A DNA stretch of 64,000 nt. It comes from Acidobacteriota bacterium (GTDB lineage Bacteria; Acidobacteriota; Holophagae; Holophagales; Holophagaceae). The stretch's first letter is position 1; every line of letters begins with the position of its first letter. A program made the translations under genes and the position numbers. The DNA lies in contig JACQZU010000024.1 of NCBI GenBank assembly GCA_016213735.1, forward strand, positions 1-64,000, read 5' to 3'. The notes below the pieces were generated by a model. The model searched no databases. It was not told the DNA's origin and was given only the letters and a program-made list of their open reading frames with translations. Positions 3,143 through 11,195 of the stretch are shown here, one piece after another.

Positions 3143-3163
3143 CTCGCCTGCAGGGGGATCCCC

Positions 3164-3826
3164 ATGGCCGATTTCAGCGCGACGGAGAGCGTACCCAGCC
3201 TGGGAATCCTCGGAGGCGGCCGCGGCGGCACGGTTCTCTTCGACTTCTTCATCAGCAGCCGGCTGGTGGAGCTGCGCTTCGTCGTGGATCCCAATGTCAC
3301 GGCGCCGGCCGTGGTGAGGGCGAAGGAACGCGGCCTTCCGACCTTCACCAACCTCGAGGCCGCGCTCCGCGGCCCCTCCGTGGACTTCGTCGTCGAGACC
3401 ACGGGCTTGGAGGGCTTCGAGGCCCAGCTGGCCCAGCGCCTGGCCGGGACCCGGACCCGGATGCTCACCCACGGAATGGCCCGCCTCATGGTGATGGTGA
3501 TGGAGGAGCACCGGAGGGACACCCAGGAGGGCGTGACGGGCATTGTGAGGCCCATCCAGGCCGAGCTCGCCACGGGCCTGGACGGGATCCAGGCCATCGT
3601 CGGCCAGATCAACCAGGTCATGGGCAGCATGCAGATGCTCGCCCTCAACGCCAGCATCGAGGCCGCCAAGGCGGGCCGCCACGGACGGGGCTTCGCCGTG
3701 GTGGCCGACCAGATGGGCAAGTCCGTCGAGACCGTCCGGGGCCTCACCCAGGAGATCGAGGCGGTGAACAGGAACATCCACGGCGTCGCCCAGCAGATCG
3801 AGGCGGTCCTCGAAAAGCTCAAGTAG
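3164..3826 (+). CDS. soluble Rossmann-domain / MCP signalling-hairpin fusion
   Basis: This is a 220-residue protein with no membrane segment. Residues 10-110 look like an NAD(P)-binding Rossmann fold of the oxidoreductase/homoserine-dehydrogenase type: GILGGGRGGTV, a strand ending in VVDPN, then VVETTG. Residues 120-220 form a short MCP cytoplasmic hairpin with an almost canonical tip (LALNASIEAAKAG, then GRGFAVVADQM). No HAMP and no periplasmic domain are present. The inference is that it passes a nucleotide or redox signal to CheA/CheW, but no other che gene lies in the window. A ribosome site (AGGGGGATCCCC) precedes the ATG. It lies 21 bases after the heptose kinase. Confidence 0.8.
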   Translation: MADFSATESVPSLGILGGGRGGTVLFDFFISSRLVELRFVVDPNVTAPAVVRAKERGLPTFTNLEAALRGPSVDFVVETTGLEGFEAQLAQRLAGTRTRMLTHGMARLMVMVMEEHRRDTQEGVTGIVRPIQAELATGLDGIQAIVGQINQVMGSMQMLALNASIEAAKAGRHGRGFAVVADQMGKSVETVRGLTQEIEAVNRNIHGVAQQIEAVLEKLK

Positions 3827-3831
3827 TCCCG

Positions 3832-3941
3832 GGCGGCGGAGCCGCCGTTTGCCCCCACGAAGAAAAGCCCGAGCCAGGCTATGCCTGGAGAGGGCGCGGG
3901 GTGTGGGGGCCCAGGCGGCGGAGCCGCCGTTTGCCCCCACG
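3832..3941. repeat. pair of 28-bp direct repeats, each containing a GGCGGC/GCCGCC hairpin
   Basis: Positions 3832-3859 and 3914-3941 carry the same 28 bases, beginning GGCGGCGGAGCCGCC and ending GCCCCCACG. Each copy contains a 6-bp stem with a GGA loop. The second copy is also enclosed by an outer stem, GTGGGGGC at 3903-3910 pairing with GCCCCCAC at 3933-3940. The pair fills the space between two convergent genes, so one role may be termination. The duplication itself suggests a dispersed repeat family. Confidence 0.7.
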
Positions 3942-3946
3942 GAGAA

Positions 3947-7000: not shown

Positions 7001-8185
7001 TCAATTGCCCTTGCCGAACAGGCCCCCGAAGAGGCTTTTCTTGATGGGGGCCGTCTCCAGTGGAGAGGCGGGGGGCGGCTCGGCGAGCCGGGCCTTGCGC
7101 AGCCGCTCGAACGTGGGGCGCAGGCCGGGAACCTTGGAGGCCTCCAGCCAATTGTCGCTGAACTGCCGGGCCACCATGTGGTACTCGGCCAGGCGGCCCT
7201 GCTCGGCCAGGCCCACCAATTGCTCCATGGTCAGGTTGCTGTAGAGCTCGGTGCCCATCTGGACCTTGAGGAGGTTGGGATCCATCGCCGGGGGCGGAGG
7301 GCCACCAGGGGCCATGCGAAGCACGACCGTGGATTCCGCCGCGCTGCGGTCCAGGTTTAGCGCCACGGTGGGCTCGGGGGGCGGCGAGGGCCGCGGCGCC
7401 GGGGGAGCCGCCTGCTGCATGGCCGCAGCCACTTCCGCGCGGCTGAGCTGGACCGTGGCCCCCGCGGGAGGGGGGAGGTCGGAAGGCTGCAGGACCGACC
7501 CCAGGGGGGGGTGGGTCTGGGTTCCGGGAACGCCCCCCAGGGTGTTCTCCAGGGCGCTGAGGGTGGCCTCCACGTCCATGGCGGCCCCGCCCCGGGCGGA
7601 ATGGGGCCTGTAGGCCGGCGGCGGGGGGGCTTCCCCCAGGAGTTTGGCAATGGCGTCCTTGGCGCTGGAATAGGATCCGGACGCCGCGAGGAATTCCTCC
7701 TCGTCCTGCACCGGCGGCACCTGGGGCGGAGTGGGACGGACTTCCGGATGCTCCTCGGGCTGGAAATCCACCAGGGTCTTGTCCAGGATCTCCGCCTCGG
7801 CTCCCGTGAGGTCGTCGGGGCTCAGGATCCCTTCCATCACCGGGGCATCGGGCTCCAGGGCCTCCGCGGGTTCCAGCACCTCCAGGGGTTCCAGGGCCTC
7901 CGTGGCGGCTTCCAACTCTTCAAGGCTTGGAAGGTCCAGGTCCGCCTCGGCGACGGGGGGGAGGGGCGGGGGAGGCTCGGCCAGGGCCGGTTCAAGGAAG
8001 TCCGACGCCAGGGGCGGCGCCGGGACGTCAGGACCGGAGAGGGAGGTGAGCAGTCCCATCACCTCGGCTTCGATGCCGAAGAGGGTGCCGCAGCGGTAGC
8101 AGCGGGCCCGGCGGATCCCGGGCCGCACCCGGGCGCGCCTCAGCCCGTAGTGGGTGTCACAGCTGGGGCAGTGCACCGATCGCAT
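7001..8185 (-). CDS. MJ0042-type zinc-ribbon protein with long acidic/proline-rich middle
   Basis: This is a 394-residue protein. The N-terminus has a zinc ribbon (CPSCDTHYGL, then CYRCGTLFGI) of the MJ0042/zinc_ribbon_5 type, often found in delta-proteobacterial and acidobacterial regulators. Residues 45-130 are very rich in Glu/Leu/Pro, residues 130-290 in Pro/Ala. A C-terminal conserved block (about 320-375) begins MGTELYSNLTMEQLVGL and looks like the GYF_2/DUF4339-type domain that follows such ribbons elsewhere. Start chosen at MRSVHCPSC, right before the ribbon. It is the first gene of the aguA cluster. Function unknown. Confidence 0.72.
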   Translation of the reverse strand: MRSVHCPSCDTHYGLRRARVRPGIRRARCYRCGTLFGIEAEVMGLLTSLSGPDVPAPPLASDFLEPALAEPPPPLPPVAEADLDLPSLEELEAATEALEPLEVLEPAEALEPDAPVMEGILSPDDLTGAEAEILDKTLVDFQPEEHPEVRPTPPQVPPVQDEEEFLAASGSYSSAKDAIAKLLGEAPPPPAYRPHSARGGAAMDVEATLSALENTLGGVPGTQTHPPLGSVLQPSDLPPPAGATVQLSRAEVAAAMQQAAPPAPRPSPPPEPTVALNLDRSAAESTVVLRMAPGGPPPPAMDPNLLKVQMGTELYSNLTMEQLVGLAEQGRLAEYHMVARQFSDNWLEASKVPGLRPTFERLRKARLAEPPPASPLETAPIKKSLFGGLFGKGN

Positions 8186-8295
8186 CACGGCGGACTCCGG
8201 GGATTTGCACCAGGATAAGGCCTTTGCAGCGGAATTGCAGCAGCGGGGCGGACCGGACACAGCCTCCAGGTATGCTCAACGGTCGAGGGGGGACC

Positions 8296-8961
8296 TTGAA
8301 CGGCGTGTTCATCAGCGTGGAGGGCGTCGAAGGCTCGGGGAAATCCACCCAGATCCTGCGCCTGTCCGAGCGCCTGCGTCGCCTGGGTGTTCCGGTGACC
8401 GCGTCGAAGGAGCCCGGCGGGACCCCCCTCGGATCTGAGGTCCGGCGCCTCCTGCTCACCCATCACTCCAGCGGGGAATCCTGGTGCCCTGACGCCGAAC
8501 TGCTCCTCTTCTACGCCGACCGCGCCCAGCACCTCGCCCAGGTGATCCGCCCCGCCCTCGCGGAGGGCCGGGTCGTCCTCCTGGATCGTTTCGAGGACAG
8601 CACCCGGGCCTACCAGGGTGCCCTGGGCGTGCCCGAGGCCACCCTGGACCGCCTGAGTGAGCTCGTGGTGGGACGGACCCGCCCCCACCTCACCCTGCTG
8701 CTGGACATGGACCCCGAGTCCAGCCTGGTGCGGGTGGACACACGCAACCTTGACCTGGGGGAGGGCTTCCGGGAGACCCGGTACGACGAGAAGTCCCTTG
8801 CCTTCCATCGTCTCGTCCGGAGCCGTTTTCTCGCCATCCACCAGAAGGAGCCCAATCGCGTCCGGGTCATCCCAGCCCGGCTGGATCCGGGGGAGGTGGA
8901 GCGGGAAGTGTGGCGCCAGGTGGCTCCCCTGCTCCGAAACGCCGGCTTCCGGGTGGAGTGA
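8296..8961 (+). CDS. tmk: thymidylate kinase
   Basis: This is a 221-residue dTMP kinase making dTDP. It has the P-loop EGVEGSGKST, the DRFEDSTRAYQG motif (DRF in place of the usual DRY/DRH) and a LID-like segment ending RETRYDE. I prefer the TTG at 8296 because GAGGGGGGA lies just upstream and it gives the usual short N-terminus before FISVEG. An ATG at 8272 in the same frame has a poor ribosome site but cannot be excluded. Its stop overlaps the holB start by one base. Confidence 0.92.
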   Translation: MNGVFISVEGVEGSGKSTQILRLSERLRRLGVPVTASKEPGGTPLGSEVRRLLLTHHSSGESWCPDAELLLFYADRAQHLAQVIRPALAEGRVVLLDRFEDSTRAYQGALGVPEATLDRLSELVVGRTRPHLTLLLDMDPESSLVRVDTRNLDLGEGFRETRYDEKSLAFHRLVRSRFLAIHQKEPNRVRVIPARLDPGEVEREVWRQVAPLLRNAGFRVE

Positions 8962-9959
8962 TGTTCGATCCTGGCCTCGCCGGGCACCTCCCCCTCCGGG
9001 AAAGACTGCGGGGCCGCCTGGAGAAGGGTGCCCTTCCCGGATCCCTTCTCTTCGCAGGGCCCGAGGGGGTCGGGAAGCGGAGGGTGGCCATGGAATTGGC
9101 CCAGCGGGAGCTTTGCTTCCGGCGCAGCGCCTGCGGCCAGTGCGAAGGCTGCCGGGCCTTCCAGTCCGATCCGCCCCCCCTGGAACTCCCCAACTTCCTG
9201 CGGGTGGCCCCCGAGGGGAAGGCGGGACTGATCCGCATTGGTGCCATCCGGGACCATGACCTCGTGGAGGGAGGCGTCATTGCCTGGGCCCACCGGGCTC
9301 CCCCCCCGCGCTGCCACCGCTGGATCATGGTGGAAGACGCCCACCGCCTCAACGGGGCCAGCGCCAACATCCTGCTCAAGACCCTGGAGGAGCCTCCCCC
9401 GGGCACCCACTTCGTCCTCGTGACCCACCGGCCGGAGGCCCTCCTTGCCACCATCCGGAGCCGCTGCGAACGCATCTCCTTCGCGCCCCTCTCGGCGGAG
9501 GAGGCCTGGAAAGTGGCCCTGGCCGCGGGCTGGGAAGAGGCCGACCGGGAGCGCTGGACCGCCCTCTCCCAGGGCAGCCTCCGCCTCCTGGACCCGGCGG
9601 ATTTCCACCGGGCCGTGGGCCAGGTGGAGGCTTGGCTGGACCTGGTCTCGGGCCAGCCCCTGGCCGTCGCAGGGGCCCCGCTTCTTCCCGACAAGGCGGC
9701 GAGCCAGGCTCAGAGCGAACAGCTCCGCCAACCCCTGGAATTGCTGCTCCTCCTGCTGCGGGAATCCGAATCTCTTCGTGTGGGCGGGGAGGTCCTGCTG
9801 GGTCCCTGGAGGGCCCGTCTCGCCGAGCTTGCCCCGCGGCTGCCCCGCCCCCGGCGCCCGCAGGCCGTGGTCGCCGCCGCGCTCCGCAGCCTCGGGCGCA
9901 ACCCCTCCGCGGAAGGCCTCCTGAGGGAAGTGGCCCTCTCCCTGGGACCGGAGCGCTGA
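8961..9959 (+). CDS. holB: DNA polymerase III delta' subunit
   Basis: This is a 332-residue AAA+ clamp-loader protein. It has a Walker-A-like GPEGVGKRR, a four-cysteine zinc module (CFRRSACGQCEGC) as in delta'/gamma subunits, a MVEDAHRLN Walker-B-like segment, NILLKTLEEPP, and the SRC motif (RSRCERISF) that supplies the trans-acting Arg. tmk-holB is a common bacterial pair. It starts on the last base of the tmk stop (TGATG). Confidence 0.9.
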   Translation: MFDPGLAGHLPLRERLRGRLEKGALPGSLLFAGPEGVGKRRVAMELAQRELCFRRSACGQCEGCRAFQSDPPPLELPNFLRVAPEGKAGLIRIGAIRDHDLVEGGVIAWAHRAPPPRCHRWIMVEDAHRLNGASANILLKTLEEPPPGTHFVLVTHRPEALLATIRSRCERISFAPLSAEEAWKVALAAGWEEADRERWTALSQGSLRLLDPADFHRAVGQVEAWLDLVSGQPLAVAGAPLLPDKAASQAQSEQLRQPLELLLLLLRESESLRVGGEVLLGPWRARLAELAPRLPRPRRPQAVVAAALRSLGRNPSAEGLLREVALSLGPER

Positions 9960-10010
9960 GAGCCGGATCACAAGATTCCCTTCCCATCCGCATTGATTTC
10001 AGGCCGGGAG

Positions 10011-10016
10011 TAGACT
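10011..10016 (+). promoter_or_regulatory. candidate -10 box (TAGACT) of the HD-GYP gene
   Basis: TAGACT lies 21 bases before the ATG in a more AT-rich gap after holB. The same hexamer, or a close variant, precedes several other genes here at similar or shorter distance. No convincing -35 box is seen at 16-18 bases. Confidence 0.35.
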
Positions 10017-10037
10017 GTGGCTCCTACCGGGGGGCCC

Positions 10038-11195
10038 ATGATCCGGCCTGAGGTGAACGGGGAGCACCAGGACCACCTGGCCCGGTTGAACTTGCGCACC
10101 ACCCTGAAGGACAAGGTGGTGGCCGTGCACGCGGATATCCGCGGAGAGTTCTCCTTCGTGGACCGCATCGCGGTTGCGCTCTACGACGAGCGGACCCGGA
10201 GCCTGAGGACCTTTCTTCACAGCAGCGGCGAGCACCGCCCCCTGGAGAACTACGAGGCCCTGATCACCGACGCTCCCGGATTGCTGAGCCTCCTGGAGTC
10301 GGGCCGTCCCCGGGTGCTGAATGACCTCTCGGTGCTCGAACCCAGCGACCACCCCCATTCCCGGGCGCTCGTGGAACAGGGGTACGGATCGAGCTACACG
10401 CTGCCCTTCTACGCCCAGGGGGTCTTCGAGGCGTTCATCTTCTTCAATTCCTTCCGCAAGCACGTCTTCACTCCCCGGGTGGTGAAAACCCTGGACCTCT
10501 ACGGCCACCTCATGGGGAACTTGATCCTCGCGGAGATCCAGGCCCTGCGCACGCTCCTGGCCGCCCTGCGCACGGTGAACCACATGGTCCACCTCCGTGA
10601 CCCCGAGACCGGCGGGCACCTGGAGAGGATGGCCTACTATGCGCGGCTCATCGCGCGGGATCTGGCTCAACAGGGGATCCAGGATTTTTCCGACGAGGTC
10701 ATCGAGCACCTGTTTGCCTTCGCTCCCCTGCACGACATCGGGAAGATCGCCATCCCGGACCGGGTGCTGCTCAAGCCCACCTCTCTGGACCCGGAAGAGC
10801 AGGAACTCATGCGGACCCACACCACCCTTGGGCGGAAAATGGTGGAGTCCATCGTGGCCAACTTCGGGCTCGAGAGCCTTGAGCACGTGGACATCCTCAA
10901 GGCCGTGGCGGAATACCACCATGAAATGCTGGACGGGAGCGGTTATCCCTCCGGCCTGCAGGGGAGTGCGATTCCCATTTTTGCCAGGATCATCGCGGTG
11001 GCGGACGTCTTCGACGCCCTGACCTCGCGACGGCCTTACAAGTACGCCTGGTGCGTGGCCGACGCCCTGATCCACATGGGACGACTGGCCGGGGAGAAGC
11101 TGGACCGGGACTGCGTGGAAGCCCTCGTCCGGAACCGGGAGCAGGTGGAGCGGATCCTCCGGGCCTTTCCAGAAGAACTCCAGGTTTCGGATTAA
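10038..11195 (+). CDS. HD-GYP domain protein, probable c-di-GMP phosphodiesterase
   Basis: This is a 385-residue soluble protein. Residues 1-165 look like a GAF-type sensor domain. Residues 180-365 are an HD-GYP domain: HLERM, HDIGKIAIPDRVLLKP, THTTLGRKMVE, the signature YHHEMLDGSGYPSGL, and ADVFDALTSRRPYK. HD-GYP proteins hydrolyse c-di-GMP to GMP or pGpG. The HHE..DG.GYP residues needed for catalysis are all present, so activity is likely. Three PilZ proteins in the window are potential readers of the same messenger. Confidence 0.88.
   Translation: MIRPEVNGEHQDHLARLNLRTTLKDKVVAVHADIRGEFSFVDRIAVALYDERTRSLRTFLHSSGEHRPLENYEALITDAPGLLSLLESGRPRVLNDLSVLEPSDHPHSRALVEQGYGSSYTLPFYAQGVFEAFIFFNSFRKHVFTPRVVKTLDLYGHLMGNLILAEIQALRTLLAALRTVNHMVHLRDPETGGHLERMAYYARLIARDLAQQGIQDFSDEVIEHLFAFAPLHDIGKIAIPDRVLLKPTSLDPEEQELMRTHTTLGRKMVESIVANFGLESLEHVDILKAVAEYHHEMLDGSGYPSGLQGSAIPIFARIIAVADVFDALTSRRPYKYAWCVADALIHMGRLAGEKLDRDCVEALVRNREQVERILRAFPEELQVSD

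Follow-up and report, generated by a model that had tools for sequence, protein, structure and literature searches.

The open reading frame at positions 3,164–3,826 of a 64,000-nucleotide stretch of DNA from a Holophagaceae genome (the whole stretch being referred to here as the window) raises the question of what a small protein might do in which a nucleotide-binding-like domain is joined directly to the tip of a chemoreceptor (MCP). The first-pass annotation had proposed that it reports cytoplasmic NAD(P)H or another nucleotide straight to the CheA array. The best explanation that we can offer is a cytoplasmic receptor which relays the binding of a cofactor, probably NAD(H), to CheA/CheW, and we hold this reading with slightly less than even confidence.

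Gene and reading frame

The 220-residue open reading frame stands just as the first-pass annotation gave it. It begins with an ATG preceded by a Shine-Dalgarno-like site; the stop codon of a PfkB-family kinase gene lies 21 bp before this ATG. The following features were assigned.

3152..3158, + strand: Shine-Dalgarno-like AGGGGGA, 5 bases upstream of the ATG (sequence)
3164..3826, + strand: gene for the 220-residue soluble Rossmann-MCP hairpin protein (open reading frame; ATG start; full-length homologues)
3197..3469, + strand: N-terminal Rossmann domain, residues 12–102 (AlphaFold, VIA-align, profile match)
3470..3526, + strand: connecting helix, residues 103–121, from the end of strand 5 (AlphaFold; alignment of 38 N-domains)
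3527..3823, + strand: antiparallel MCP hairpin, residues 122–220 (PF00015; 3g67 superposition)
3605..3763, + strand: protein-interaction tip, residues 148–200, core QMLALNASIEAAKAGRHGRGFAVVADQMGKSVETVRGLT (20 of the 29 invariant residues)

A chance open reading frame, a misread frame or a chance fusion was ruled out because full-length homologues with the same layout exist. Open reading frames on the complementary strand across the gene were also considered and set aside, as nothing of their own supports them. Just 3′ of the gene, ggcggcggagccgccgtttgcccccacg, with an inverted repeat, occurs twice (window 3831–3861 and 3910–3942) and may represent an element of the terminator or REP kind.

A short hairpin with a conserved receptor tip

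Structure prediction, which had been recommended as a check, was carried out with AlphaFold using eight sequences and gave a Rossmann domain followed by a helical hairpin (mean pLDDT 83.5), with helices at residues 103–169 and, after a turn, 175–219. Residues 121–215 matched PF00015 with 55.1 bits against a cut-off of 34.6 (E 1e-14). Superposition of the hairpin on the soluble Thermotoga receptor 3g67 gave a Z of 11.7 and an rmsd of 1.7 over 95 residues (Foldseek, VIA-align). In VIA-align, helical bundles can often reach Z values as high as about 13; we accept the match here since it is in line with the sequence match to MCPs. Each arm is about 49 residues or 7 heptads long, giving a bundle of about 14 heptads. 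No membrane span was found either in the model or by hydropathy, the highest 19-residue Kyte-Doolittle mean being 1.35, and HAMP is absent among the Pfam matches. The earlier description of a soluble protein with an MCP tip, a short helical bundle and no HAMP is thus confirmed.

In an alignment of 15 Holophagaceae members, 29 residues are invariant, 20 of them in the tip and 8 in the Rossmann domain. Counted from residue 104, the helical part is 117 residues long in 14 of these members and 116 in the other, and the C-terminal arm has the same length, 49 residues, in each of the 17 Holophagaceae members. The positions of Tsr L380, N381, E385, F396 and V398, which face CheW and the CheA P5 domain, are identical in all 15 aligned sequences, with substitutions of I377 by M and R388 by K. 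In the window protein the retained residues include L161, N162, F177 and V179, with M158 at the position of I377. The trimer-of-dimers residues are changed in every aligned member: the equivalent of Tsr E402 is Q183 (H, Q or N across the family) and that of R404 is G185 (G, T, A, N or S). The QTN triplet has also gone from every aligned member, and the Tsr tip glutamate E391 is replaced by V, R, T, H or Q. In the genome's seven other receptors TN is retained throughout, together with E and R/K at the E402 and R404 positions.

Methylation helices are missing: the C-terminal arm has 49 residues, where six of the genome's seven other receptors have 134–190. Such helices are not strictly defining, since accepted receptors such as TlpD do without them. 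Judged by length, about 7 heptads per arm also place the hairpin outside the described heptad classes (24H or longer). By architecture the protein resembles a cytoplasmic receptor, but two usual receptor features are absent from it. We prefer the name Rossmann-MCP hairpin protein to that of a standard MCP.

Partial parallels are found among known receptors. Tm14 of Thermotoga maritima (3g67/3g6b) and TlpD likewise lack a membrane span and carry an MCP tip on an antiparallel hairpin, and canonical methylation sites are absent from TlpD (PMC12871147) as they are here. However, Tm14 has no ligand-binding domain, TlpD has PAS and CZB domains, and the hairpins of both are longer. TlpD moreover keeps E231/R233, named as trimer residues (PMC12871147) and equivalent by register to the Tsr E402/R404 pair lost from the window protein. 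Trimer and CheA/CheW determinants are located at the receptor tip (PMC4692393). The 24H class, the shortest mentioned in PMC7534058 and PMC4742279, resembles our protein in its short signalling domain and in having some cytoplasmic members, but its 24 heptads contrast with about 14 here and its sensors are PAS or membrane-anchored, unlike the Rossmann domain. For membrane receptors, truncation by one heptad already blocks joining of the main cluster (PMC7534058), although no fixed distance from the membrane is imposed on a soluble receptor. The literature searched, with few subscription journals in it, yielded no description of Rossmann or NAD chemoreceptors.

Because E402/R404 and QTN are lost and the hairpin is shorter than 24H, docking may involve a dimer or adaptor and not an ordinary trimer-forming receptor. 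A rival reading is that the protein serves as an array adaptor or decoy, whose dimeric tip binds CheW or CheA-P5 and forms no receptor trimers, so that true receptors would be displaced or capped and the size or activity of the array tuned by cofactor occupancy. The retention of CheW/P5-facing positions alongside the loss of the trimer residues in all members speaks for it, as do arms of merely 7 heptads and the precedent of ParP, which indicates that non-receptor proteins can enter core units (PMC5706961). Trimer residues do vary among receptors, however, and the changes might be accommodated where full-length receptors join in mixed trimers. We consider this proposal, with its consequence for the true receptors, somewhat unlikely.

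The N-terminal Rossmann domain and its re-use

Strands of the Rossmann domain were modelled at residues 12–16, 36–41, 75–78 and 99–101, and its features include a GxGxxG loop (G17–G22), an invariant D42 ending strand 2 and VETTG at residues 77–81. Foldseek and VIA-align superposed the model on the acylating acetaldehyde dehydrogenase 4lrs (Z 12.4) and on NAD-bound GenD2 6nor (Z 11.8), and a profile of N-domain relatives matched acetaldehyde dehydrogenase structures with an E of 5.6e-7, all of which substantiates the Rossmann fold claimed from first inspection. The match to Pfam GFO_IDH_MocA fell under the cut-off (16.4 bits for a gathering score of 24, E 0.015), and 12 of 13 family members matched this entry at E up to 0.1; no dedicated Pfam family was matched by the domain. 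The Rossmann fold and glycine-rich loop are common to acetaldehyde dehydrogenases (4lrs, 1nvm) and Gfo/Idh/MocA oxidoreductases (6nor), and GenD2 shares the VVD strand end as well. In contrast to these enzymes, the window protein has no catalytic or substrate-binding half, residues 103–220 being modelled solely as a helical hairpin, and its N-domain is instead one that is fused to signalling outputs.

Homologous N-domains, with output types read from the sequences, precede PAS or GAF histidine kinases (L222, L224–L227, L232, L237–L240 and L243), a NarX-like kinase (L236), LuxR-HTH-GAF-GGDEF or GAF-GGDEF proteins (L223, L231 and L233) and sigma-54 activators (L167 and probably also L241, truncated where its contig stops). 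In these fusions, from Desulfobacterota, Myxococcota and Acidobacteriota, the glycine loop recurs, as do an acidic residue ending strand 2 and a conserved TG following strand 4. The motif [AS][RK][LFMV] at the junction with the connecting helix is common to our protein and to the majority of the kinase, GGDEF and sigma-54 fusions (38 N-domains aligned); N-domain and junction are homologous and the outputs differ. Some kinases contain the Rossmann domain twice. In its own genome a clear copy was found solely in the window protein. Domains that recur ahead of unrelated outputs are usually sensory, and the presence of this one before histidine kinases, GGDEF proteins and sigma-54 activators makes a cytoplasmic input module, so far uncharacterised, its most likely identity. 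The reporter role first suggested for it thereby gained support. The literature searched held no description of such Rossmann-fronted kinases, GGDEF proteins or sigma-54 activators.

As to the ligand, D or E ends strand 2 in all 38 aligned N-domains, matching NAD-bound GenD2 6nor, and the MCP group has a GxGxx[G/A] loop; NAD(H) would fit the GxGxxG loop and the Asp that ends strand 2. A cytoplasmic receptor whose N-domain senses something else, be it a CoA thioester, ADP-ribose, another small metabolite or a partner protein, could be argued from the best profile matches, which are CoA-acylating acetaldehyde dehydrogenases in which the strand-2 Asp is not aligned, and from the Cys that replaces the third glycine of GxGxxG in some kinase fusions. 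The near-universal acidic residue and GxG loop, with their match to GenD2, weigh against this, and we judge it distinctly unlikely.

Family, distribution and chemosensory context

The suggested search for the same layout in relatives returned 17 two-domain members in Holophagaceae, including the window protein, to which the others are 28–66% identical. Full-length members were present in 15 of the 93 genomes of the class, all Holophagaceae, some with more than one copy and one with a tandem pair (L041:6957–7637 and 7711–8370). The nearest relatives are in a Geothrix MAG (L053) and in genomes G071 and G080, of which L053 and G080 appear to be one record. Occurrence is sporadic, as in genus g4, with the gene in 2 of about 40 genomes. 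Four divergent two-domain members lie outside Holophagaceae: L165 and L166 from another Acidobacteriota family, found in the phylum scan, and L246 and L250, one each from the phylum to which a Desulfatirhabdium (Desulfobacterota) genome belongs and from that of a Myxococcota genome, for which about 300 genomes each were scanned. The Rossmann-MCP hairpin protein is, on these comparisons, a real family.

Degenerate tips (LNAKIE..RA; GNAF, GDAF or GRAF) were observed in L165:3618–4505, L166:6134–6814 and L250:1504–2154, which suggests that contact with CheA is relaxed in this branch and possibly that CheA is no longer bound. In an N-domain tree the Holophagaceae proteins group with L246 (91/78) and L165/L166 stand apart; L250 was found later and is outside this tree. 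As to a single origin of the Rossmann-tip fusion, the tree as it stands needs two changes, but one clade was not rejected (AU p 0.124), so that one or two fusions are possible in the history of the family.

The window protein is the sole MCP-signal match in its contig and one of eight in the genome. Two CheA/CheW systems are encoded on other contigs, C15 and C23, in agreement with the earlier remark that the gene stands outside any che cluster, and FliM is also present. The C15 system (L187) comprises CheA, CheW and two long receptors; these adjacent receptors beside CheA (L187:5571–7847 and 7976–10279) have near-identical C-terminal halves and different sensor parts. In the C23 system (L188:8315–12884, genome G000), CheA is accompanied by a triple-CheW protein and by a CheW whose helical C-terminal extension holds a CheZ-resembling FQDIARQKLERV stretch. 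The C23-type CheW protein occurs in 51 of the 93 genomes of the class and in all 15 that carry the Rossmann-MCP hairpin protein (hypergeometric p 4e-5 in the class and 9e-4 within the family, values that ignore shared ancestry).

Gene context says little on function, because the upstream gene differs (the PfkB-family kinase here, purF in the nearest relatives, as read from sequence) and no che gene recurs beside family members, whose neighbours are not conserved between lineages; assignment from neighbours was accordingly set aside. In genus g5 (L039:3679–6790 and L045:7051–9864) genes for a histidine-kinase-like protein and a sigma-54 response regulator come immediately after the homologue.

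The hairpin could alternatively be a mere dimerisation stalk, no longer in contact with CheA/CheW, in a protein that works elsewhere, for instance alongside the kinase and sigma-54 regulator adjoining it in g5. Tips such as GNAF, GDAF and GRAF in the divergent family f28 and in Myxococcota relatives would agree with this, but 20 invariant tip residues would be superfluous in a stalk, the C23-type chemosensory protein accompanies the family in every class genome that carries it and the neighbours differ between lineages; we find this explanation highly improbable. That the gene is a functionless remnant of a dehydrogenase or receptor, left by degradation or truncation, as the missing catalytic half and methylation region might suggest, is scarcely credible and already refuted by conservation, given an intact frame, a 17-member family, a fixed helical length and conserved motifs.

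Proposed function

The reading of the protein as an input to CheA/CheW draws on its architecture, predicted fold and conservation, on the re-use of its N-domain and on the fact that the genome encodes CheA/CheW and FliM, and direct signalling to the CheA array is plausible. Counted against a CheA/CheW receptor are the loss of E402/R404 and QTN, the short hairpin, the sporadic gene and its unconserved neighbours. We propose that the Rossmann domain would bind a dinucleotide cofactor, most likely NAD+/NADH, and that cofactor occupancy or redox state would alter the packing of the Rossmann domains in a presumed dimer. The change would travel via the helix leaving strand 5 at residue 103 into the short four-helix hairpin bundle, whose conserved tip would dock on CheW and/or the CheA P5 domain, most likely those of the C23 system, and either raise or lower kinase activity. 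Internal redox or energy state could in this way control motility without a membrane receptor and without a methylation region.

More tentatively, the protein may be an NAD(H)-sensing receptor with a natural hairpin of about 14 heptads that acts on CheA without trimers or methylation, and at the same time represent, on the chemotaxis side, a Rossmann input domain, as yet undescribed, that in several phyla precedes histidine kinases, diguanylate cyclases and sigma-54 activators; taken as a whole, this combination is possible rather than probable.

Significance

Energy and redox taxis are usually ascribed to flavin or haem receptors (Aer, HemAT). If our proposal is true, a direct dinucleotide sensor on CheA ties metabolism to movement via one small soluble protein. 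The hairpin may approach the smallest unit still able to control CheA, and could be used to test how much receptor CheA needs and whether trimers are required. What is new here is that histidine kinases, GGDEF proteins and sigma-54 activators can begin with the same Rossmann domain, and the N-domain of this small protein would mark a sensory module common to them.
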